Shown here: piece after piece, positions 3,722 through 43,990 of the stretch
How positions within the stretch are numbered: position 1 is the stretch's first letter
How the letters are laid out: every line of letters begins with the position of its first letter
Assembly (NCBI GenBank): GCA_903895595.1
Contig: CAITUP010000070.1
Location: forward strand, 1-43,990
Source: an uncultured Acetobacteraceae bacterium
GTDB lineage: Bacteria > Pseudomonadota > Alphaproteobacteria > Acetobacterales > Acetobacteraceae
Length of the DNA stretch: 43,990 bases
Reading direction: 5' to 3'
Notes under the pieces: model-generated
Seen by the model: the letters and a program-made list of their open reading frames with translations, nothing else
Databases searched by the model: none
Told to the model about the DNA's origin: nothing
Program-made: the position numbers and the translations under genes

Positions 3722-5041
3722 TCAGGCGCTGCGTGGCAGGGGCACCACGTTGCCGGTCTCCCCATTGATCGCTGCCGAGAGCAGGCGCCCCCACAGTTCC
3801 ATTGCCCGCATTTGTTCGGGCCATCGGCTGGACCGCTGGTAGACGCCGAGTACTCCGCCGCGCGTCGCGGCTTGCCGATGGTTCAGCACCGCATCGGCGA
3901 CCATCTCGGGTATGCCGGCCTCGCCCAGCGCGCTGGCGAAGGACCGGCGCATGTCGTGCCATGTCCATTCCGTTGGGGCTGGGCCATCCTCCGGCTGGAT
4001 CGCCGCCGCCATTGCGGCCTTGATCCTGGTAAAGGTGTCGATTTCCTCGCCGGAGCGGGGCGCGGGGAATACAAGCCCGGAACGCGACCCCTTCCCCCGG
4101 TTGTTCAGCACGTCCAACGCCAAGGGGTGCAGATGCAGGCGGTGCGGGTCCCCGTTCTTCGTCATGTGATCCGGCTGGCGCCATTCGGCGGCGGTAAGGT
4201 CCAGATGCGACCAATCCAGCCGCGTCGCTTCCCCGCGCCGGCACGGCACCGCGATCAGGAACCGAACCAGATCGCGCCAGACCGGCTCCCGCAGCCTTTC
4301 GGCGGCGTGCCAGAGCGTCGCAAGTTGCGCCGGGGCCAGATAGTGGGATCGGGCTTGCGGAGTTTTGGGGCGCCGCGAGCGGGCCAGGAGGGTGCATGGG
4401 TTGACCTGAATATGCCCAAGGTCCTGGCACCAGTCGAGGAAGCGGGACAGCGGGCCGAACCGCTTCCGGGCCGTCGTCTGCCCAACTGCACCGGCAAGGA
4501 GGGCGCGGATATTCGCTTCGGTCAAGTCGGTAACCGGTGTGTTCTCCGCCTTCATCTCTTTCACCGCCATGCGCGTCTGCGCCAGTTCCTCGGCGATGTA
4601 ATCGGGGGAGGGGGCGCCGGTCCCCCGCATCTTTGGGCGTTTGGGTAGTGCGCGACCGTATTCTTCCAGCAAGCGGCCAAGAGTGGCCCCGCGTTTACGC
4701 TGTTCTTCGGCCGCGCGGGCCTTCTTTTCCATGGCGGGATCGGCCCCGGCCGCAGCTTGCCCTTTGATACGATTTGCCTCGGTGCGGGCATCCTCGTGGG
4801 AGTGGGTAGCCGGGTTGCCCAGCGTCACCGCCCTGTTGGGCCAACGACTGCATGTCGCGGGATCGTTGCCGCGCGGGCGATAGGAGTAGCTCCAGGTCAT
4901 CGTCGTGGGGTTCACGATCAGCGCCAGCCCCCGGCACTCATGGTCGCGCAGGATCAGCCGTGTTGCCGGCTTCCGGCGCCGCCAAGCAGCATCGACGGTC
5001 GCCTTGGTGATCCTGATCGGGCCTTCGCTGATGATTTGCAT
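3722..5041 (-). CDS. int: Tyrosine-type site-specific integrase
   Basis: A 439-residue phage/P4-type integrase that catalyses recombination between element and chromosome attachment sites. The N-terminal part (about 1-100) has the arm-binding/DUF4102-like character; residues about 145-215 form the SAM-like core-binding domain. The catalytic domain shows the full set: Arg268 in CRRGEATRLDW, Lys295 in MTKNGDPH, His362 and Arg365 in WHDMRRSF, His388 in LNHRQ, and the nucleophile Tyr401 in GVYQRS. It therefore looks intact and active. The start is ATG 5041, preceded by AGGA that is part of a repeated 8-mer (see 5046-5097). The gene lies 180 bases from the tRNA-Thr remnant and reads away from it, the usual arrangement for an element inserted in a tRNA gene. 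Confidence 0.95.
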   Translation of the reverse strand: MQIISEGPIRITKATVDAAWRRRKPATRLILRDHECRGLALIVNPTTMTWSYSYRPRGNDPATCSRWPNRAVTLGNPATHSHEDARTEANRIKGQAAAGADPAMEKKARAAEEQRKRGATLGRLLEEYGRALPKRPKMRGTGAPSPDYIAEELAQTRMAVKEMKAENTPVTDLTEANIRALLAGAVGQTTARKRFGPLSRFLDWCQDLGHIQVNPCTLLARSRRPKTPQARSHYLAPAQLATLWHAAERLREPVWRDLVRFLIAVPCRRGEATRLDWSHLDLTAAEWRQPDHMTKNGDPHRLHLHPLALDVLNNRGKGSRSGLVFPAPRSGEEIDTFTRIKAAMAAAIQPEDGPAPTEWTWHDMRRSFASALGEAGIPEMVADAVLNHRQAATRGGVLGVYQRSSRWPEQMRAMELWGRLLSAAINGETGNVVPLPRSA

Positions 5042-5556: not shown

Positions 5557-7137
5557 ATGCGCCGCCGCAACCTGATGAAAATGGCCGCCGCCGCCACGGT
5601 GCTGCCCTCCGGCTTCGCCATCGCCCAGCCGATGCGCGACCGCACGCTGCGATTCGTGCCGCAAGCCAACCTTAGTCTGCTCGACCCGATCTTCACCACC
5701 GCGCAGCCGACGGTGAACCACGGTTACGCCGTCTACGACCTGCTGTTCGGGATCAACGGCAAGCTGGAGCCCCGCCCGCAAATGGCCGAGGGATTCTCGC
5801 TCTCCGACGACGGGCGTGTTTACACGATCAAGCTGCGGGACGGGCTGAAGTTTCACAACGGTGAGCCGGTTCGCGCCCAGGATTGCGGACCCAGCCTCGC
5901 CCGCTGGGCGGCGCGGGAGACCATCGGCCAGACGGTTTGGCAGTACGTCGACAGTTACACCGCGACCGACGACCGCACCCTGACCATCAAGCTGAAGCGT
6001 CCGATCGGCATCTTCATCGATGCCATCGCCCGTGGCGGTGCTTCGGTCGCGTTCATGATGCCGGAGCATATCGCGCGGACGGACCCGTTCCAGCAGATCA
6101 AGGAGACCATCGGCTCCGGCCCCTATCGCTTCCTGAAGGACGAGTTCATCCCCGGCGCCGCCGTCGCCTACGAACGCAACAAGGACTACGTGCCACGGCA
6201 GGAGCCGGCGGAGTGGTCCTCGGGCGGCAAGGTCGCGCATTTCGACCGGGTCGAGTGGAAGATCATTCCGGACACCGCCACCGCCGCGGCCGCCCTGCAA
6301 TCCGGGGAGATCGATTGGTACGAGCACTGTCAGGCGGACCTGCTGCCCGTGCTGCGCAAGAACCCCGACATCGCCTTCGGCCGAGCGAACCCGACCGGGT
6401 TCAACGGGGTCATGCGCTTCAATCACATGCACGCGCCATTCAATAACGTGAAGGTGCGCCAAGCGGTGCTGATGGCGGTGATTCAGGACGACTACATGTC
6501 GGCGGTCACCGGCGGCGACAAATCGCTGTATGCGACCTGCAAATCGATGTTCCCCTGCGGCAGCCGCTACGACCGCAATTTGGGCGCCGCCGTCATGCCG
6601 GGCGATATCGAAAAAGCCAAAAAAGCGTTGGAGGCGTCGGGCTACAACGGCGAAAAAACCGTCCTCCTCAATCCTACCGACCTCGTTACCGTCGGGCCGC
6701 TGGGCGACGTCACCTACGACATCATGAAGCGCATGGGCATGAACGTGGAGATGGTCGCCACCGATTGGGGCACCGTCGCGCAGCGCCGGAGCAACCGCGA
6801 TACCGTGGAGAAGGGCGGCTGGTCGGTCCACCACACCTGGGGCCCGTCCACGATCCGGCAAACCCCGGTGGAGCACAGCCAAATCCGCGGCCAAGGCGCC
6901 AAAGGCTGGTTCGGGTGGTACGAAGACGCCGAAGTCGAAAAGCTGACCCGGGAATTCGTGGAAGCACCGTCTCAAGCCGAGCGGGACGCCATCGCGGATA
7001 CGATCCAGAAGCGGGCGTTCCAGACGGTGCCCTCGGTGCCGCTGGGGACGTTCCAGATTCCGACGGCCTACCGGCGCAGTCTGACCGGGCTGATCGAGGC
7101 CACCGGGCCCTATATGTGGAATATCCGGCGGGCGTAG
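5557..7137 (+). CDS. ABC transporter substrate-binding protein, family 5 (dipeptide/oligopeptide type)
   Basis: A 526-residue periplasmic binding protein of the SBP_bac_5 (DppA/OppA/NikA) family, which captures peptides or other small ligands for an ABC importer. The N-terminus RRRNLMK followed by an Ala-rich segment ending AIAQ (about residue 24) is a signal peptide with a Tat-like twin arginine. Family features include the SDDGRVYTIKLRDGLKFHNG strand pair and GSGPYRFLKDEF. GGGAG precedes ATG 5557. No permease or ATPase gene is adjacent, so it is an orphan binding protein or works with a transporter encoded elsewhere. A close paralogue lies at 8569-10155. The ligand cannot be told from sequence. 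Confidence 0.9.
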   Translation: MRRRNLMKMAAAATVLPSGFAIAQPMRDRTLRFVPQANLSLLDPIFTTAQPTVNHGYAVYDLLFGINGKLEPRPQMAEGFSLSDDGRVYTIKLRDGLKFHNGEPVRAQDCGPSLARWAARETIGQTVWQYVDSYTATDDRTLTIKLKRPIGIFIDAIARGGASVAFMMPEHIARTDPFQQIKETIGSGPYRFLKDEFIPGAAVAYERNKDYVPRQEPAEWSSGGKVAHFDRVEWKIIPDTATAAAALQSGEIDWYEHCQADLLPVLRKNPDIAFGRANPTGFNGVMRFNHMHAPFNNVKVRQAVLMAVIQDDYMSAVTGGDKSLYATCKSMFPCGSRYDRNLGAAVMPGDIEKAKKALEASGYNGEKTVLLNPTDLVTVGPLGDVTYDIMKRMGMNVEMVATDWGTVAQRRSNRDTVEKGGWSVHHTWGPSTIRQTPVEHSQIRGQGAKGWFGWYEDAEVEKLTREFVEAPSQAERDAIADTIQKRAFQTVPSVPLGTFQIPTAYRRSLTGLIEATGPYMWNIRRA

Positions 7138-7216
7138 ACGGTAACCCGGCTTGCCATTGGCAGGCGGTGACGGCAGGTTGCCGGCGTTCCGCCTTCGAAG
7201 GATCGATGTCCCCGGC

Positions 7217-7924
7217 ATGGCTTACCAAAATCGCTTCGCGCGGGAGCGGAAACGCCAGCGCGCCAAATTCATCGGGTTGATCGGAACGGGGCTGCTGGCG
7301 GCCGGCGGTCTCGCGGGTCTTGGCTATGCCGCGTGGGTGGCGGGCAGCGAGTTGGCGCAGGTGCGCACCAGCAACCTGGAAACCAAAAACGCCCAACTGG
7401 CCGCCGAGCGCGACGCCGCTCGGGCGCAGGCGGCGCGCGCCGACGCGGCGGCGGCGACGCTGCGGCAGGACAACGCCGCGATCCAAAAACGCTATGACGC
7501 CGAAGTCCCTACCGGCTCGATGGCCGAGATTTACGCTCTTGTGCGCCAGCGGCTGGGGGCTGGCGTCGATCAGGCGCGGCTGACCGCGTTGCTGCGCGAT
7601 GCCGGGCCGTTGCAGCCTTGCGAAAGCCGCGTTCTGCGCAAACGCCACCCCATCCAGGTGGCGCCCAAGGACGCCTCCGACATGGCGGTGTTTCTGGATG
7701 GGCTGGTCGGCGTCGCGGTTGCCATTCCGTCGGCGGGCGCGGCACCGAAGCAGACGGCTACGGTGACCATCGTTACCGCCTGGACGGAGGAGCCGGTCAA
7801 GTTGACGGGACTGCCGGCCCGGCGGGACATCGTCATCAACAATGCGGTTTTGCGTCTGGCGGTGGACGTCAGCGAAGTCGCTGGCTTCGCATCGGTCGCG
7901 CTGTCGGTCTGCGGTAAGGGTTAG
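7217..7924 (+). CDS. Membrane-anchored coiled-coil protein of unknown function (235 aa)
   Basis: Starting at ATG 7217 this gives 235 residues: a basic N-terminus (residues 1-17), one transmembrane helix (about 18-42), a predicted coiled coil rich in Ala, Arg and Glu (about 46-93), and a C-terminal soluble domain of mixed strands (about 100-235). Cys135 and Cys232 are the only cysteines, so a disulfide in the periplasm is possible. The basic tail before the helix predicts a type II topology with the bulk outside the cytoplasm. It lies 79 bases after the binding-protein gene on the same strand and ends 12 bases from a convergent nitroreductase. I recognise no family; a scaffold or envelope role would be a guess. 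Confidence 0.7.
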   Translation: MAYQNRFARERKRQRAKFIGLIGTGLLAAGGLAGLGYAAWVAGSELAQVRTSNLETKNAQLAAERDAARAQAARADAAAATLRQDNAAIQKRYDAEVPTGSMAEIYALVRQRLGAGVDQARLTALLRDAGPLQPCESRVLRKRHPIQVAPKDASDMAVFLDGLVGVAVAIPSAGAAPKQTATVTIVTAWTEEPVKLTGLPARRDIVINNAVLRLAVDVSEVAGFASVALSVCGKG

Positions 7925-7936
7925 CCGGGCGCGGGC

Positions 7937-8566
7937 TTATTCCCAGCCATTCCCCCAACGATCATCGTACACCACATCCGCCAGCGCCGTCCGCCGCACA
8001 GGGCCGAATTTCCCCATTGGATAGCCGATCGGAATAATCGCGTAGGAATGCACGCCCTCCGGCAGGCCCATCGCGGCCTCGGCTTCCTTCTCGAAGTTCA
8101 GATACAGCGTGGTCAGCGTCGCCCCCAACCCGAGCGCGCGGGCGGCGAGCAGCATGTTCTGCACGGCAGGGTAGATCGACGATCCCGTCGTGCGCGTCGG
8201 ATTGGCCCCGGCGGCGCAGGGGACGATCCAGACCGGCGCCTCATGGAAATGGTCCGCCAAGTACTCCGCCGCGTCGAGCATCCGAGCGAACCGCTCCGGC
8301 GTGGTGCCGGGGGCAGGACCGCCGGCGCGGTAGCGTGGGCCTACGACCTCATGCCAGCCGCGTCGGTAATATTCACCCACGGCGGCTTTGATCGCGGGAT
8401 CGCGGATCACCAGGAAGCGCCAGTTCTGCATGTTGCCGCCGTTCGCGGCCATGGTCCCGGCTTCCAGCACGCGCGCGATCAGCTCCTGAGGCACCGGATC
8501 GGGCTTCAGGCGGCGCATGGATCGGGTGGTGCGCATGACCTCGAACAGGTCGGTTTCGTTTGTCAT
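7937..8566 (-). CDS. Nitroreductase family protein
   Basis: A 209-residue FMN-dependent nitroreductase-fold oxidoreductase. The N-terminal RTTRSMRRLKPDPVP matches the FMN phosphate-binding segment common in the family, followed by AANGGNMQNWRFLVI and the C-terminal YAIIPIGYPMGKFGP strand-turn. Such enzymes reduce nitro compounds, quinones or related substrates with NAD(P)H; the natural substrate here is unknown. The start is ATG 8566, two bases after the stop of the upstream binding-protein gene, whose end supplies the GGAG ribosome site, so the pair is translationally coupled. A paralogue with the same motifs is at 12158-12799. Many members act as dimers, which is family knowledge and not visible here. 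Confidence 0.9.
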   Translation of the reverse strand: MTNETDLFEVMRTTRSMRRLKPDPVPQELIARVLEAGTMAANGGNMQNWRFLVIRDPAIKAAVGEYYRRGWHEVVGPRYRAGGPAPGTTPERFARMLDAAEYLADHFHEAPVWIVPCAAGANPTRTTGSSIYPAVQNMLLAARALGLGATLTTLYLNFEKEAEAAMGLPEGVHSYAIIPIGYPMGKFGPVRRTALADVVYDDRWGNGWE

Positions 8567-8568
8567 GG

Positions 8569-10155
8569 TCAGCTCCATTTCAGATTCCAGGGGAAGGGCG
8601 CGGTGCCCTCCAGCAACCCGGTCAGGCCTTTGCGATGCGCGGTCAGGATGAAGAAGCGCCCGAGCACCACGGTGGGCACGGCGTCCATGGCCTGCTGGTG
8701 GATGGCCTGGGCCAGCCGCAGCCGGTCTTCGTCGGTGGGGGCGGTGGTCCAATCGGCGGTCAGGGCCTCGATTTTCTCATCGGTGAAGAACCCGGCCCAG
8801 CCCTTGGCGCCGAGGCCGCGCACCACGACCGAAATCGCGGGGTTGGAGAAGGAGGTGCCGAGCCACCAGTTGTGGAAGATCGACCAGCCGCCTTTTTCCA
8901 CCGGATCGGCCTTGGTGCGGCGCTGCGCCAGCGTGTTCCAGTCCATCGATTGCAACTCGACGTTCATGCCGATCTGCTTGAGGTAATCGTAGGTGACCAG
9001 ACCGAACGGCCCGATGGTCGGGATATCGGCGGGATTGAGGATCACGACCTTCTCCCCCGCGTAGCCGGCGGCTTTCAGCGCGGCGCGGGCGGCACCGATG
9101 TCGCCGGTCATCTGTGCGGTGCCGATTTCGTCTCCATACGTCGTGCCGCAGGGGAACAGGGCCTTGCAGGCGCGGTAGATCGACGGGTCGCTGCCGGTCA
9201 CCGCGCTCATGTAATCCTCCTGGTTCATCCCCAGCCGCACCGCTCGGCGGATCGCGACATTGTTGAACGGCGGTTGCAGGTGGTTGAAGCGCATGGTGCC
9301 GAAGAAGCCGACGGTGTTGAAATTGCTCACGGTCAGGTCGGGATTTTTGCGCAGCAGCGGCAGCAGATCGGGCTGCACCTGTTCCCACCAATCGACCTCG
9401 CCCTTTTGCAGCGCGGCGGAGGCGGTGGAGGAATCATTGACGATCTTCCATTCGATCCGGTCGATATGGGCGACCTTGCCGCCGGATGCCCAGGACGGTT
9501 TTTCGTTCCGGGGCACGTAGCCCTTGAAGCGTTCGTAAGCGGCGCTGCCGCCGGCCACGAATTCGTCCTTCAGGAAGCGGTAGGGGCCGGAGCCGATCAT
9601 TTCGGTGTTCGGCTTGTTCAAATCGGTGTTGGCGAGCCGTTCCGGCATCACCACCGGCAACATGCCGTTGGGCTTGGCCAGCGCGTCGGGCAGCAGGGAG
9701 AAGGGGGATTTCAGCTTGATCCGCAGGGTGCGGTCGTCGGCGCCCGCGAAGGATTCGACGAAACCGCCGAGGGTTTGGCCGTACACGTCGCGCGCGGCCC
9801 AGCGCCGGAGGCTCGCGGCGGCGTCGCGCGCCAGCACTTTCTCCCCGTCGTGAAAGGTGAGCCCGTCGCGCAGCTTGATGTCCCAGGTGCGGCCGTCGTC
9901 GGAGACGCTGGCGCTTTCGGCCATCTGGAGGCGTGGCTTCTGTGCGCTGTCGAGCGCGAACAGGGTGTCGAACACATGGTACCCATGCGTGATGGAAACC
10001 TGCGTGGTGGTCCAGGAGGGGTCCAAAACCGACAGGTCGGCGGTCGGGATGTAGCGGAGCAGGCGGTTGGTGCCGGCGCCGGTGCCTTGCCCGATGGCGA
10101 AGCGTGTGGGCAGAGCCGCGACAGCCGCGGTGGAAAGGAGAGTGCGTCGCCGCAT
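8569..10155 (-). CDS. ABC transporter substrate-binding protein, family 5 (second copy)
   Basis: A 528-residue SBP_bac_5 protein, clearly paralogous to the one at 5557-7137: both share GSGPYRFLKDEF, a VSDDGRTWDIKLRDGL-type segment, and a VEKGGWS motif near residue 415. The N-terminus RRRTLLS plus Ala-rich stretch to AIGQ is a Tat-like signal peptide, so the protein is periplasmic. It is followed two bases later by a nitroreductase gene on the same strand, an unusual partner for a binding protein, and no permease or ATPase is nearby. The pairing suggests that the ligand is also a substrate of the reductase, or that the two are merely co-transcribed. The 207-base gap to the divergent cytochrome gene holds its promoter. 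Confidence 0.9.
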   Translation of the reverse strand: MRRRTLLSTAAVAALPTRFAIGQGTGAGTNRLLRYIPTADLSVLDPSWTTTQVSITHGYHVFDTLFALDSAQKPRLQMAESASVSDDGRTWDIKLRDGLTFHDGEKVLARDAAASLRRWAARDVYGQTLGGFVESFAGADDRTLRIKLKSPFSLLPDALAKPNGMLPVVMPERLANTDLNKPNTEMIGSGPYRFLKDEFVAGGSAAYERFKGYVPRNEKPSWASGGKVAHIDRIEWKIVNDSSTASAALQKGEVDWWEQVQPDLLPLLRKNPDLTVSNFNTVGFFGTMRFNHLQPPFNNVAIRRAVRLGMNQEDYMSAVTGSDPSIYRACKALFPCGTTYGDEIGTAQMTGDIGAARAALKAAGYAGEKVVILNPADIPTIGPFGLVTYDYLKQIGMNVELQSMDWNTLAQRRTKADPVEKGGWSIFHNWWLGTSFSNPAISVVVRGLGAKGWAGFFTDEKIEALTADWTTAPTDEDRLRLAQAIHQQAMDAVPTVVLGRFFILTAHRKGLTGLLEGTAPFPWNLKWS

Positions 10156-10362: not shown

Positions 10363-11751
10363 ATGAACCTGAAATCGCTATGGGGCCGGTCACGCTGTGG
10401 GGAACCGCGCGCGATGTCGGCTTTTTTTGTTGTCCTGATGGCATCCTTCGTCCTTCTGGCCGCGACGCGGGACGCAGGGGCCGTGCCGGCGTTCGCGCAA
10501 CAAACCGGTCAGCCCTGCGCCACCTGCCATGTCGGCGCCTTCGGTCCGCAACTGCGGCCGTACGGACGGGATTTCAAGCTCCGCGGCTATACGGCCACGG
10601 ACGGCAAGCCGTGGAAACCGCCGATCGCGGTGACGATTCAGACAACATTCACGCACACGCAGGCGGCCCAGCCGGGCGGCGCGGCACGTTGGTTCGCGCC
10701 GAACGACAATTTCGCATTGGATCAAATCTCGGTCTATTATGCGGGTCGCATCGCACCCAATCTGGGGGCATTCATTCAGACCACCTACGACGGTGTGGCG
10801 CGCGTCGTACACATCGATAATGCGGATATCCGCTACGCCGCCGAATTCTCTCCGTTCGAGATCGACAGCGTCTACGGCTTCACCTTGACCAACAGCCCCG
10901 GCGTGTCCGATCTGTGGAACTCCACGCCGGTTTGGGGTTTTCCGTATAATAGTTCCGGGCTTGCGCCGGGGCCGGTGGCGTCGGCGATAATCGACGGCCA
11001 ACTGGGCCAGCGGGTCGTCGGGCCCGGTGCGTACGCGTTATGGGGCGATTGGGTCTACACGGAATTCGCACTGTACCGCGGCCTTGGCCGGGACGTGCTG
11101 AACGCGACCGGTATCGTGCCGGTATCGGGCGCGCCGCGGATCGAAGGTGTGGTGCCGTATTGGCGGCTGGCGTTGCAGCACGATTTCGAGAGCGGCCATT
11201 CGTTCGAATTGGGGACGTACGGGCTGCACACCGATATCTATCCGAATGGCGACCGATCGGCCGGGGCGACCGATTCGTATACCGACATCGCCTTCGACGC
11301 GAGCTACCAGTTTATCGCCAATCCCGATGTGACAACGTCCGACATGATTTCGGCGCATGCGACGTTCATCCATGAAAAGCAGGATCTGAACGCGAGTTCC
11401 GTCCTGGGCGGCAGCAACCGGCACAATACGTTGAACACGTTCCGCGCCGATGTGTCCTACGCCATCGCGGCGACGGTGACGCCGAGCGTCCAGTATTTCA
11501 ATACATGGGGTTCGCCGGATGCGAATTTCTACAGTTCGCCGAACGGACCGACCGTGTACAAACCGAACAGCAGCGGCTTTATCGCCGAGATTGCCTACGT
11601 GCCGTTCGGCAAGCCGGACTCCTCGATCGGTTGGGGGAATATCCGGTTCGCAGCCCAGTATGTTGCCTATACCCAGTTCAACGGCGTGCGCCATGGCGCG
11701 AGCGACAACAACGCGTTGTATCTCAGCGTTTGGCTGGCGGCGCACTTCTGA
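10363..11751 (+). CDS. Cyc2-like fused monoheme cytochrome c and outer-membrane beta-barrel
   Basis: A 462-residue secreted protein. A signal peptide ends at about Ala40 (AGA, then VPAFAQQTG). One heme c motif, CATCH at residues 52-56, is followed by PYGRDFKLRGYT, then about 370 residues of alternating polar and hydrophobic strands with many Tyr, Trp and Asn turns. The chain ends LYLSVWLAAHF, a typical outer-membrane barrel closing strand with terminal Phe. One N-terminal heme joined to a porin barrel is the layout of Cyc2 from iron oxidisers, and the FA-x-QTG-x-x-C-x-x-CH context is similar. I infer electron transfer across the outer membrane; the donor is unknown. ATG 10363 has a weak ribosome site; ATG 10414 (GGGGA upstream) would give a shorter signal peptide. 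A cupredoxin gene follows after 22 bases. Confidence 0.75.
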   Translation: MNLKSLWGRSRCGEPRAMSAFFVVLMASFVLLAATRDAGAVPAFAQQTGQPCATCHVGAFGPQLRPYGRDFKLRGYTATDGKPWKPPIAVTIQTTFTHTQAAQPGGAARWFAPNDNFALDQISVYYAGRIAPNLGAFIQTTYDGVARVVHIDNADIRYAAEFSPFEIDSVYGFTLTNSPGVSDLWNSTPVWGFPYNSSGLAPGPVASAIIDGQLGQRVVGPGAYALWGDWVYTEFALYRGLGRDVLNATGIVPVSGAPRIEGVVPYWRLALQHDFESGHSFELGTYGLHTDIYPNGDRSAGATDSYTDIAFDASYQFIANPDVTTSDMISAHATFIHEKQDLNASSVLGGSNRHNTLNTFRADVSYAIAATVTPSVQYFNTWGSPDANFYSSPNGPTVYKPNSSGFIAEIAYVPFGKPDSSIGWGNIRFAAQYVAYTQFNGVRHGASDNNALYLSVWLAAHF

Positions 11752-11773
11752 TGGCGGGAAAGGAGAATCTTCC

Positions 11774-12112
11774 ATGAGAATTCGATCCATTTGGCCCGCT
11801 TTGGCACTGTGTGTCGCAGCTGTATTTGTGACTCAGGCTGCGTTTGGGACCGAACCGACGCTGATCGATCAGGTTCGGCAGCGTTTCAGTCTGTCGAAGA
11901 TCTCGATCCTGTCGGGCGACGTGGTCAATTATATCAACCACGACGACGTGCAGCATAATATTCATATCTTCGGTTCCGACGGATCGGACATCGATCGCGG
12001 TTTGCAAAATCCGGGTCAGACGATCGTGCAGAAGTTCGACAAGATCGGCGAATACACCGTTCGTTGCTCCATCCACCAAAAGATGAAAATGAAGGTCGAA
12101 GTCCGAGCATAA
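11774..12112 (+). CDS. Small secreted cupredoxin-domain protein
   Basis: A 112-residue protein with a signal peptide (about residues 1-25) and a plastocyanin-like fold. Type 1 copper ligands are all visible: His61 in DDVQHNIHI, Cys98 and His101 in VRCSIHQKM, and Met104. It should be a blue copper electron carrier in the periplasm. AGGAGA at 11760-11765 precedes ATG 11774. The gene lies 22 bases after the cytochrome-porin gene, so the two are probably one operon. The simplest reading is that the cupredoxin takes electrons from the heme of its neighbour, or delivers them to it. Such pairs resemble rusticyanin-linked iron oxidation in principle, though this protein is shorter than rusticyanin. 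A strong hairpin follows the stop. Confidence 0.8.
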   Translation: MRIRSIWPALALCVAAVFVTQAAFGTEPTLIDQVRQRFSLSKISILSGDVVNYINHDDVQHNIHIFGSDGSDIDRGLQNPGQTIVQKFDKIGEYTVRCSIHQKMKMKVEVRA

Positions 12113-12119
12113 GGGCAGG

Positions 12120-12151
12120 CCGGCGCCCGCATCTTGGGATGCGGGCGCCGG
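12120..12151. terminator. Hairpin terminator between convergent genes
   Basis: A perfect 14-base stem (12120-12133 with 12138-12151) around the loop TTGG lies eight bases after the cupredoxin stop and seven bases before the end of the convergent nitroreductase. The stem is almost all G-C. There is no long T run on either strand, so it may act as a bidirectional, partly factor-dependent terminator or an RNA-stabilising hairpin. Confidence 0.6.
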
Positions 12152-12157
12152 TTCGTA

Positions 12158-12799
12158 TTACTCGGCGATGTAGGGCTGGCCCCAGCGGTCCTGGTAGACG
12201 AAATCCGCCAGCTTGCCGCGCCCGACGGGGCCGAATTTCCCCATCGGATAGCCGATCGGCAAGATCGCGTAGGACCGCACGCCCGACGGCAGGCCCAAAG
12301 CGCCATCGGTCTCGGCCTCGAACTGCAAATGCCGCGTCGTTAAGGTCGATCCCAACCCCAGCGCACGCGCCGCGAGCAGCATGTTCTGCACCGCCGGATA
12401 GATCGACGCCCCGGCCCAGCGCGGCGGCGGATTCGGGCCTTCGTCGATGCAGGCCACGATCCAAACCGGCGCTTCATGATAATGTTCGGTCAGATATTCC
12501 ACGGCGGTGTGCTGGCGCTTGTATTTGTCGGCCGTGGCGCCGGGCGGAGGAGCGGATGACGCGTAGCGCGGGCCCACGACCTCATCGAACGCTTTCTTGT
12601 ACCAAACCTGCACGGCCTTCTTGATCGCGGGATCCTTCACGACCAGGAATCGCCATTTCTGCGTGTTGCCACCGTTCGCGGCGCAGGATCCGGCCTCCAG
12701 GATCTTATGGATCAGTTCGTCCGGCACGGGATCGGGCTTCAACCGACGCATCGAGCGCGTGGTTTGCATGATGTCGAACAGGCCTGGATCGTCGCTCAT
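12158..12799 (-). CDS. Nitroreductase family protein (second copy)
   Basis: A 213-residue nitroreductase-fold flavoprotein, closely similar to the one at 7937-8566: both share RSMRRLKPDPVP, IYPAVQNMLLAARALGLG and IGYPMGKFGPV. FMN binding is expected from RSMRRLKPDPVP and the NGGN-x-Q-x-WRFLV segment. The start is ATG 12799 with GGAGGA upstream on its strand; longer frames upstream lack support. Unlike its paralogue it has no binding-protein gene beside it. It is convergent to the cupredoxin gene with a strong hairpin between. Substrate unknown; candidates are nitroaromatics, quinones or a dehalogenase/oxidase-like activity known in the wider superfamily. Confidence 0.9.
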   Translation of the reverse strand: MSDDPGLFDIMQTTRSMRRLKPDPVPDELIHKILEAGSCAANGGNTQKWRFLVVKDPAIKKAVQVWYKKAFDEVVGPRYASSAPPPGATADKYKRQHTAVEYLTEHYHEAPVWIVACIDEGPNPPPRWAGASIYPAVQNMLLAARALGLGSTLTTRHLQFEAETDGALGLPSGVRSYAILPIGYPMGKFGPVGRGKLADFVYQDRWGQPYIAE

Positions 12800-12870
12800 G
12801 GTGGGTTCCTCCGGTGATTGGGGGGCGATGATAGCAGGACTGTCCCGATTGTCTTGGGGGGAGGGCGGCG

Positions 12871-13797
12871 ATGCGCTACGCCTGCGCGGCATTCCTAATG
12901 GAGCGTCCGACCATGGATATTTTGAGCCAGTTTTCCGCCGCCTTGGCGGATCGCGTCGCCGGCGCCGCCGCCAGTGTCGTGGCCCTGCGCCTCGACGAAC
13001 GCCCGCGCGCCGGCATTCTCTGGCGCCCCGATGTGGTCGTGGCATCCGAACAGACCGTGGGACAGTGCGACAGCGTCTGCGTCGTGCAAGACGGTGTCGA
13101 GGTCGGGGCGAAGCTCGCCGGCCGCGATCCCGGCACGAACGTGGCCGTCTTCCGTCTGGAAACCCCGCTGTCGGGCGTGCTGCCACCGCCCGCCGAAGCG
13201 CCACGGGTCGGGTCTTTGGCCGCGATCCTCGGCGCCGACGATCGTGGCGCGGCCACCGGCCGTCTGGCCATCGTGCATGCGGTCGGGCCGGAGTGGCACG
13301 CCATGGCCGGCGGCCGGATCGATACGCTGATCCGGCTGGATGCCCGCCTGGGCGCCGATGAGGGCGGCCCGGTCCTCGATGCCGCGGGTGGGTTGCTGGG
13401 CATGTCCGCCTCCGGCCCGCACCGTCGGGTGCTGGTGATTCCCACCGCCACCATCGCGCGGGTTGTCGATCCGATTCTGGAACACGGGCGCGTGGCGCGC
13501 GGCTGGCTGGGTGTCGGGCTGGAGCCGGTGGCGCTTTCCGAGAAATCCGTTCCGGCCGCCGGCCAGCGTCGCGGCGCGATGGTGCTGAATGTGGCGTCCG
13601 GTGCGCCGGCCGATGCCGCCGGGGTTCTCGCGGGCGATATCCTCTTGGAAATGGACGGCCGCAAATTCGGCCATCGGCGCCCGCTATCGCTGTTCATGGG
13701 GCCGGAACGGATCGGGCAGACCGTGACGCTGCGTCTGCTGCGGGCCGGCGAGCCCCGCACGATCGCCTTGACGATCGCCGCTCGGCCGGGGGGGTAA
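12871..13797 (+). CDS. HtrA/DegP-like protein with PDZ domain, catalytic triad missing (pseudoprotease)
   Basis: A 308-residue protein with a trypsin-like domain (about 25-205) and a C-terminal PDZ domain (about 212-305: [30 protein letters not shown]). All three S1C catalytic positions are changed. In the aligned HtrA motifs His becomes Glu60 ([10 protein letters not shown]), Asp becomes Asn90 ([12 protein letters not shown]) and the GNSGGP Ser becomes Glu164 ([10 protein letters not shown]). The fold is kept, so it is probably a non-proteolytic binding protein or regulator. I see no convincing signal peptide, so it may be cytoplasmic. GGAGG lies six bases before ATG 12871; ATG 12913 is an alternative start with a GGAG nine bases upstream. 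The substitutions come from my motif alignment by eye, not a structural model. Confidence 0.85.
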
Positions 13798-43195: not shown

Positions 43196-43393
43196 GGTGT
43201 CGAGTTTCCCGCGTATCGGACGCATGCGTCCCTATAAATGTGGCGTCGGTCCGCCGAAACAAGCGGGACCGGCGTGTTGGGCGGACCATGACGCCAGAGG
43301 CGCCCCGCGTCCAGCGGGAAGGCATTGGAGGGTTGCATTCAAGGGCTTGCAATCCAATCCGAACCCCCCTATCAACCGCGTCACCGACGGAGC

Positions 43394-43468
43394 GCGGGCG
43401 TAGCTCAGGGGTAGAGCACAACCTTGCCAAGGTTGGGGTCGAGGGTTCGAATCCCTTCGCCCGCTCCA
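43394..43468 (+). tRNA. tRNA-Gly(GCC)
   Basis: A complete 75-base tRNA with encoded CCA. The acceptor stem is GCGGGCG with CGCCCGC; the D arm (GCTC-AGGGGTA-GAGC), the anticodon stem CAACC/GGTTG around TTGCCAA (anticodon GCC) and the T arm GAGGG-TTCGAAT-CCCTT all fold normally. The discriminator is T, as expected for tRNA-Gly. It lies 198 bases from the start of cnoX on the opposite strand. A truncated transposase begins directly behind it. Confidence 0.97.
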
Positions 43469-43885
43469 GATTTTCTCTGCTATGCGCACGAGGCTGCGCA
43501 GATCCGGCGCGTTCTCCCACCGCGACATCGTCGGCTGCGAGGCGAGGTCGTCGCCGCTATCCGGCAACCGCCCGCAGGCCAGCTTGAAGGCCGGATCGCG
43601 GCGCAGGTGGTCCAGGTCGTTGGCGTCGGGGTAACCGCATGCGATGGCCAACACACGGGCGCGCAGGATGTCCGCCATCGTGTGGGTGATTGGCGCGGGG
43701 TCGCGGTGGTCGGGGATTATACCGGCGAGCCGGTCGATCAAGCCGAGCCGCTTGTCGGCACCGGCCAGCAGCAAGGCGCCGCCGTCGGAACTGACCTGGC
43801 CGCCGTCGAATGCGGCGGTGACCTTCTTCTTGCCGATACTTGGCAGCGAGAACGGCAGGAGGGTATCTTCGGTGTCGGCAGGCAT
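43469..43885 (-). pseudogene. IS1380-family transposase, N-terminal fragment
   Basis: From ATG 43885 the reverse strand encodes the N-terminal part of an IS1380-family DDE transposase: TLLPFSLPSIGKKKVTAAFDGGQVSSDGGALLLAGADKRLG and LASQPTMSRWENAPDLRSLVRI. A full protein has about 430-460 residues; here homology ends after about 135 residues, near 43480, and the frame then runs into the complement of the tRNA-Gly gene. The catalytic C-terminal residues are missing, so it is inactive. The frame continues to 43232 only by chance. A TTG at 43927 is a less likely start. The rest of the window (43886-43990) may contain the left end of the insertion sequence, but I could not identify its inverted repeat. 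Confidence 0.85.
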
Positions 43886-43990
43886 GGCAGATTCTGTCCG
43901 GGCATCGGGTATGGCGTCGAGAACCAAACCTTATGCGATTCCAGACGGGTGTGCCGTGCCTGCCAGCGAATCCCTGCTATGCGGTGAATA

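Follow-up and report, generated by a model that had tools for sequence, protein, structure and literature searches.

A heme-bearing porin and a small copper protein are encoded next to each other in an uncultured Acetobacteraceae bacterium, and with the copper oxidase and sensor that accompany them in relatives they suggest a copper-based wire by which the cell draws electrons from its surroundings, perhaps from dissolved iron. The pair is found on a contig of 43,990 nucleotides, which was analysed whole and is referred to here as the window (contig C70). The genome to which it belongs comprises 5,455,175 bases and is 99.56% complete. Judging from the loci of relatives, the porin–cupredoxin pair is conserved beyond chance. 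The favoured reading, which is given about an even chance, is that the pair conducts electrons through the outer membrane. Here, electrons from an outside donor, most likely Fe(II), would pass to the heme, from there to the cupredoxin and finally to an oxidase or to the respiratory chain.

The cytochrome–porin

The porin gene (10363..11751, plus strand) encodes a Cyc2-like fused cytochrome–porin of 462 aa, as seen from the ORF list, the matches in relatives and the predicted structure. The ORF is not an artefact because its best matches in relatives have 35–64% identity, most of them over more than 400 of the 462 residues and some partial. The protein begins with an N-terminal region that includes a hydrophobic export segment (residues 1–40; 10363..10482, plus strand), read by eye and containing a helix at residues 17–33 in the model. 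This is followed by AVPAFAQQT (residues 40–48; 10480..10506, plus strand), which is the counterpart of the Cyc2 motif AXPXFAR[Q/K][T/Y] and has Gln46 (10498–10500, plus strand) in place of the motif Arg. The heme c site, CATCH (residues 52–56; 10516..10530, plus strand), is the sole CxxCH of the ORF, lies within AVPAFAQQTGQPCATCHVGAFGPQL and is conserved without exception across the 69 sequences of set A2. The AlphaFold2 model and Foldseek predict a 16-strand barrel for residues 88–461 (10624..11745, plus strand), and the C-terminus is LYLSVWLAAHF. The original prediction, that one protein joins an export segment, a single CATCH and about 370 residues of barrel-like strands, agrees with these features, the strands spanning 374 residues in the model.

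Sequence searches with the porin gave no matches in the PDB at E 10 and no lead in Pfam or NCBIfam, and a porin profile found 5 weak PDB matches. Structure prediction, which had been proposed as a check, was done for the porin. With an input of 12 sequences, AlphaFold2 returned a pLDDT of 73.6 and left the heme segment unplaced, and with 69 sequences it returned a pLDDT of 90.7 and a pTM of 0.85. Both models contain 16 long strands plus one 3-residue piece. In the 69-sequence model, which is of the protein without heme, the block means for the heme segment (residues 41–80) are 74–94. Foldseek with the porin model found 219 PDB matches at E ≤0.001. OmpF, PorB, OprO and OprP are among the first 50 of these, for which the TM-scores by query length are modest (0.36–0.47) and the identities are 8–12%. 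OprO and OprP are also the templates named for Cyc2 (PMC8406198). The 16-strand model and the porin matches rule out a soluble cytochrome. On the strength of the model and the CATCH site, the porin part is predicted to be a 16-strand outer-membrane barrel whose N-terminal segment carries a single heme c; the protein would be exported and loaded with heme, which would be positioned in the pore.

The cupredoxin partner and its surroundings

The gene that follows the porin ORF after 22 bases (11774..12112, plus strand) encodes an amicyanin-like cupredoxin of 112 aa, with copper ligands H61, C98, H101 and M104, and is identified by PF00127, a PDB match and ligand alignment. Both the spacing and the ligands are as originally described. 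The protein is assigned to the plastocyanin/azurin family, as it has the His/Cys/His/Met ligands and matches PF00127 Copper-bind above the cut-off (E 2.7e-9, 37.8 bits vs. 21.2). Its best PDB sequence match is amicyanin (E 7.9e-6), and the NCBIfam amicyanin model is not reached, with 31.4 bits vs. a cut-off of 110.2. The partner had been likened to rusticyanin and this does not hold, because the copper loop, CSIHQKM, is C-x2-H-x2-M as in amicyanin and not C-x4-H-x4-M, which excludes a rusticyanin-type protein. Counting repeats, 42 of the 43 cupredoxin hits have the loop CxxHxxM, in a sample that includes the best 80 of at least 537 named-genome relatives. The sole exception is a Bradyrhizobium cupredoxin (L047, 9005–9679), whose loop, CNIHPSV, lacks Met in the customary axial position.

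A strong hairpin (12115..12156, plus strand; −36.4 kcal/mol, z −5.88) separates the cupredoxin gene from a convergent nitroreductase gene. It is a possible terminator, without a T run, and is not among the calls of a promoter and terminator scan of the window, which were at chance level. The transporters and nitroreductases previously noted around the pair correspond to two SBP_bac_5 and two nitroreductase genes (window 5557–10155 and 12158–13204), an arrangement that would fit duplication of a block. Elsewhere in the window, an ORF at 3722–5041, inspected by eye, resembles a tyrosine recombinase/integrase. ARAGORN places a tRNA-Gly (gcc) at the end of the contig (43394–43468, plus strand), inside a minus-strand ORF (43232–43927) that is transposase-like by eye.

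Conservation of the pair in relatives

Porin matches are found in 21 of 59 relatives, representing 2 of 27 genera, and in 14 of 385 genomes of the class, representing 11 of 277 genera. The scan of named genomes found at least 537 relatives, of which the best 80 were kept, so that the row counts below describe a sample including these. Among the matches listed are Rhodopila and other Acetobacteraceae MAGs, Rhodospirillales, Caulobacterales and Ferrovum-labelled MAGs, as well as Bradyrhizobium jicamae, Nitrospirillum iridis, Rhizomicrobium electricum, many Methylococcales, a Candidatus Electronema MAG and others. Nine plasmid records also hold relatives, and the Acidithiobacillus ferrooxidans and Acidiphilium cryptum records have the same identity and score.

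A quick maximum-likelihood tree was built from 107 rows, 105 of them different, leaving out rows with an unread motif or with fewer than 380 aa after the motif. The table of partners left out nine loci (L001–L007, L033 and L037) that repeat the window, named loci or the other two copies of the same genome (L118 and L119). Rows with both partners (L078) were scored as cupredoxin, and the cytochrome label of L027 is an opposite-strand hit. A cupredoxin gene lies within 1.5 kb of the porin in 34 of the 107 rows. The window falls in a clade of 30 rows (SH-aLRT 98), and whether the genes stay together in relatives had been set beforehand as a test; in this clade 29 of the 30 rows have the cupredoxin within 1.5 kb, or 27 of 28 without identical rows (two pairs). 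The one row that lacks it, L054, has a cytochrome c and just 678 bases of downstream sequence. Within the clade, the cupredoxin gene of L063 is on the opposite strand, and in L045 the oxidase gene stands between porin and cupredoxin. The row most similar to the window is the second copy in its own genome (65%). Five further cupredoxin rows stand among cytochrome-partnered relatives, and the well-supported branches imply that the partner label changed three times or more. In the 18 loci of family 3, from Methylococcales and unnamed proteobacteria, a protein of some 246 residues with a single CxxCH often comes after the Cyc2-like gene; one example, that of L082 (4836–5576), has no Pfam match.

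Loss of the Cyc2 arginine

The motif AXPXFAR[Q/K][T/Y] has been called unique to Cyc2, and sequences without PXFAR[Q/K][T/Y] were removed before the published Cyc2 tree was built (PMC8406198). Measured against the features given in that paper, the window protein has a single N-terminal CxxCH, a 16-strand porin part in the confident model and, with its 462 aa, a length above the minimum of 365 residues. Its motif fits at 8 of 9 positions, the exception being the Arg that is replaced by Gln46 (PMC8406198). PQL is located 5 residues after CATCH vs. 4 for PXL in the same paper, where counting conventions may differ. The original description of a Cyc2-like fusion thus stands as regards a cytochrome–porin with a 16-strand model, and strict membership of Cyc2 is unsupported because the Arg of the published motif is replaced by Gln.

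In the 107-row tree, which includes the best 80 of at least 537 relatives, the Arg is kept in 42 rows and none of these has a cupredoxin. It is lost in the other 65, which comprise 34 with a cupredoxin, 22 with a cytochrome c hit and 9 without either partner. In the cupredoxin rows, its place is taken by Glu (14), Gln (7), Val (5), Ala (4), Asp (2) or Ile (2). When the set is restricted to 83 rows, a cupredoxin is present in 0 of 35 rows that keep the Arg vs. 29 of 48 that have lost it (p 6.6e-10, relatedness ignored). The idea that a missing Arg marks the copper partner is weakened by the presence of a cupredoxin in just 34 of the 65 Arg-lost rows. From the alignment, loss of the Arg seems to be required for the copper partner, yet not specific to it. 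That this loss tunes the heme is a guess.

The loss has a practical side. Cyc2 is a marker of iron oxidation and its signature demands an Arg that is absent from the cupredoxin-type branch, so that signature-based surveys would miss this group of cytochrome–porins. The group includes Acetobacteraceae and other Alphaproteobacteria MAGs, Ferrovum-labelled MAGs and a named Bradyrhizobium strain, B. jicamae SZCCT0215 (L047).

Companion oxidase and sensor

Two further genes recur beside the cupredoxin-type porins. Fisher tests were done on 83 named or own rows (L091 was dropped for its motif) from the sample with the best 80 of at least 537 relatives, with relatedness ignored. Oxidase and sensor counts cover the fetched stretches, some of which are cut by contig ends, and genes past the end are scored as absent. 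As the profiles for the oxidase and sensor were built from the same loci, the comparison of cupredoxin rows with the others is the only control. A multicopper oxidase is present in 14 of 29 cupredoxin rows vs. 1 of 54 others (p 3.5e-7), the latter being L095, whose oxidase is of a different kind. The 14 rows correspond to 13 genes because L039 has two porins. In the remaining 15 of the 29, some cut by contig ends, there is no oxidase in the fetched stretch. The sensor is present in 21 of 29 vs. 1 of 54 (p 3.4e-12). In contrast, a small cytochrome c within 1.5 kb is seen in 1 of 29 cupredoxin rows vs. 14 of 54 others (p 0.015). The order and strand of the porin, cupredoxin, oxidase and sensor genes vary between lineages.

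The recurrent oxidase is a three-domain multicopper oxidase. The best PDB matches of the one from L041 are laccases (9cpm, E 7.5e-59, and Thermus 2xu9, E 9.6e-57), and the four copper motifs searched for are present in all 13 main-group oxidase genes. Methionine makes up 1.6–3.5% of the 13 operon oxidases, so they are not Met-rich. In L058 (12732–14801), the multicopper oxidase is fused to SCO1/SenC and may load copper in the periplasm. C-terminal parts of multicopper oxidases, cut by the locus edge, are also found upstream of cytochrome-type porins in two loci of the same genus (L015, 3469–4362; L019, 3435–4370).

The recurrent sensor is a membrane receptor with an MCP domain and, in several cases, also PilZ. 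One input domain is common to 16 sensors, all in cupredoxin-type loci; half of the 16 (8) seeded the profile, one seed (L052) aligns poorly and L021 and L055 are copies. This single domain is joined to different outputs, namely GGDEF by motif in L044 (7204–9660), GGDEF-EAL in L047 (5174–7534) and MCP with PilZ in L041 (9690–11579). The receptors of the cupredoxin-type loci L056–L059 and L062 are not matched by the profile. A Pfam scan of neighbours took in 111 of 149 listed proteins, and the families seen in at least 10 of the 111 are copper-binding, MCP and multicopper oxidase. Among families seen in at least two of the 111 there is no copper exporter and, beside the cupredoxin-type copies, no terminal-oxidase family. 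A full-text literature search, with supplements and most subscription papers outside its reach, turned up no description of a Cyc2-like protein whose gene is clustered with those for a cupredoxin, a multicopper oxidase and a sensor.

MtrAB-type genes lie near the Cyc2-like gene in three of the relatives. In the cupredoxin-type locus L046 (2057–5429), a DmsE-family decaheme gene and MtrB/PioB, both above NCBIfam cut-offs, lie 2.5–5.9 kb upstream. L075 (12130–15444) has a decaheme gene, judged by ten CxxCH, and MtrB/PioB, and L109 (13604–17044) has a decaheme gene and an MtrB/PioB that is below the NCBIfam and above the Pfam cut-off. A decaheme gene is also found in L071, 157 bases past the porin gene. 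In a Rhodopila MAG (L092), the porin gene is followed by a protein of 219 residues with four CxxCH, which in our own reading is NapC/NirT-like.

Three copies in one genome

The window's own genome contains three copies of the porin, each differently partnered. The second copy (L118, contig C8, 4970–10613) has the porin, two cupredoxins, an MCP-PilZ receptor and a multicopper oxidase in a row. The third (L119, contig C86, 8641–10617) has an upstream monoheme cytochrome c (PF00034) instead of a cupredoxin, with cytochrome c-550 CycA, below the cut-off, as best NCBIfam match. The window copy has the cupredoxin only, without oxidase or sensor. The oxidase of the second copy is the one strong Cu-oxidase_3 match in the genome, a second match on contig C38 being partial (26.3 bits, above the cut-off). 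Its best NCBIfam match is CueO, at 152.7 vs. a cut-off of 525. The original prediction, drawn from the window alone, missed the oxidase and sensor as well as both further porin copies.

The genome has no Photo_RC match, which excludes phototrophy through a photosynthetic reaction centre. It has one RuBisCO_large match (71 bits, above the Pfam cut-off). For this protein all NCBIfam RuBisCO models are far below their cut-offs, which excludes Calvin-cycle autotrophy, and the best is an enolase model, also below; the protein looks like a RuBisCO-like protein. As far as tested, with no reaction-centre match and no true RuBisCO, the organism remains the apparent heterotroph that it was originally taken to be.

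Proposed mechanism and alternatives

In the conduit proposed here, a dissolved one-electron donor outside the cell, most likely Fe(II), would reduce the heme of the barrel, which would in turn reduce the amicyanin-like cupredoxin in the periplasm. The cupredoxin could then pass the electron to the laccase-like multicopper oxidase encoded with the genome's second copy of the system, and this enzyme would form water from O2. Alternatively, the electron could leave through a c-type cytochrome to the respiratory chain. For an apparent heterotroph, such a chain would amount to an accessory oxidation and not to a basis for autotrophic growth. The direction, donor and acceptor of the flow are inferred, and Fe(II) is the likeliest donor because of the analogy to Cyc2. 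Counted for the conduit are the porin model, the pairing in 29 of 30 rows, the enrichment of oxidase and sensor, the varied gene order, the complete set on contig C8 and the decaheme and MtrB genes. Counted against it are the loss of the Arg, the 15 of 29 rows without oxidase, the window copy without oxidase or sensor, and the modest TM-scores. Taken together, the pairing, the companion genes and the MtrAB-type links favour inward flow.

A more specific proposal, which is put forward tentatively, is that the cupredoxin branch is a self-contained copper system in which the porin without the Cyc2 Arg passes electrons to the cupredoxin, a dedicated laccase-like oxidase and O2, bypassing the inner membrane. 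Here, a dedicated sensor with exchangeable outputs (chemotaxis, PilZ and diguanylate cyclase) would steer the cell toward or away from the donor, and heterotrophs would use the system for purposes other than energy. A rival arrangement, energy-yielding Fe(II) oxidation as in Acidithiobacillus, with cytochrome c and a respiratory oxidase after the cupredoxin and the multicopper oxidase incidental, is unlikely. It has the precedent of the rus operon, which joins Cyc2 with Rus, Cup, Cyc1 and an aa3 oxidase (PMC10654088), and Ferrovum-labelled MAGs do carry cupredoxin-type copies; however, the neighbour scan, with no terminal-oxidase family in two or more of its 111 proteins, speaks against it, as does the own genome, in which searches limited to RuBisCO and reaction centres found no true RuBisCO and no reaction centre. 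The laccases that are the oxidase's best PDB matches could point to the oxidation of other outside donors through this enzyme, such as Mn(II) or humic or phenolic compounds, and a role of Cyc2 in oxidising Mn(II) has been put forward for Manganitrophaceae (PMC9040806). This is distinctly unlikely, as a laccase-like name does not fix the substrate and the own-genome oxidase is closest in NCBIfam to CueO, far below the cut-off.

That same CueO match, together with the cupredoxin, the multicopper oxidase and the single oxidase–SCO1 fusion (L058), could instead indicate copper handling, with the oxidase and cupredoxin acting on Cu(I), either by oxidation or by transport, and the pore serving as an outer-membrane channel. 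This is improbable, however, as no copper exporter recurs among the 111 neighbour proteins, the 13 oxidases are not Met-rich and the heme in the pore is left unexplained. MtrAB-type genes are able to work in either direction, which would allow outward transfer of electrons to Fe(III), humics or electrodes. The high potential of type-1 copper argues against this, and the presence of a companion oxidase suggests that the electrons end on O2. Outward transfer is thus highly improbable, even though Cyc2 isoforms have been linked with iron reduction in acidithiobacilli (PMC10715153).

For the conduit reading, the exchange of cytochrome c and cupredoxin partners, together with the oxidase and sensor, provides a concrete wiring in bacteria that are not considered iron oxidisers, and one genome has three copies with different partners.

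Comparison with known systems

The comparison with Cyc2 and Cyt572 rests on the published motif and on six Arg-bearing rows from our own sample. Like these proteins, the window porin has one N-terminal CxxCH, followed by a PXL-like stretch and a 16-strand porin part, in about 400–500 residues. Unlike them, it has Gln for the motif Arg, an amicyanin-like cupredoxin as partner and VGAFGPQL after the heme site, where the six rows have FPELTP. The cupredoxin resembles amicyanin in its loop and best PDB match; it differs in scoring well below the NCBIfam cut-off and in that no methylamine dehydrogenase genes are present among the window ORFs read.

In Acetobacteraceae, Cyc2 has been described beside mono- or diheme cytochromes (PMC10715153). 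It is also described in Ferrovaceae, in a report whose main text contains neither “cupredoxin” nor “multicopper” (PMC13390463). The Slit_1812–1818 cluster of Sideroxydans lithotrophicus ES-1 is similar in that copper proteins, SCO1 and a cytochrome are tied to iron oxidation; it differs in being apart from that organism's Cyc2 genes, Slit_0263–0265, as judged by locus tags only (PMC12016527). A further parallel is the rus operon of Acidithiobacillus ferrooxidans (Cyc2, Cyc1, Rus, Cup and Cox), where a Cyc2-kind protein is likewise encoded with copper carriers, the rusticyanin loop being formed by Cys138, His143 and Met148 (PMC10654088). In contrast, the window cupredoxin has the shorter CxxHxxM loop, there are no Cyc1 or Cox genes beside the pair and its relatives carry a multicopper oxidase and sensor instead. 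Cyc2 and copper carriers in one operon are already known from Acidithiobacillus.
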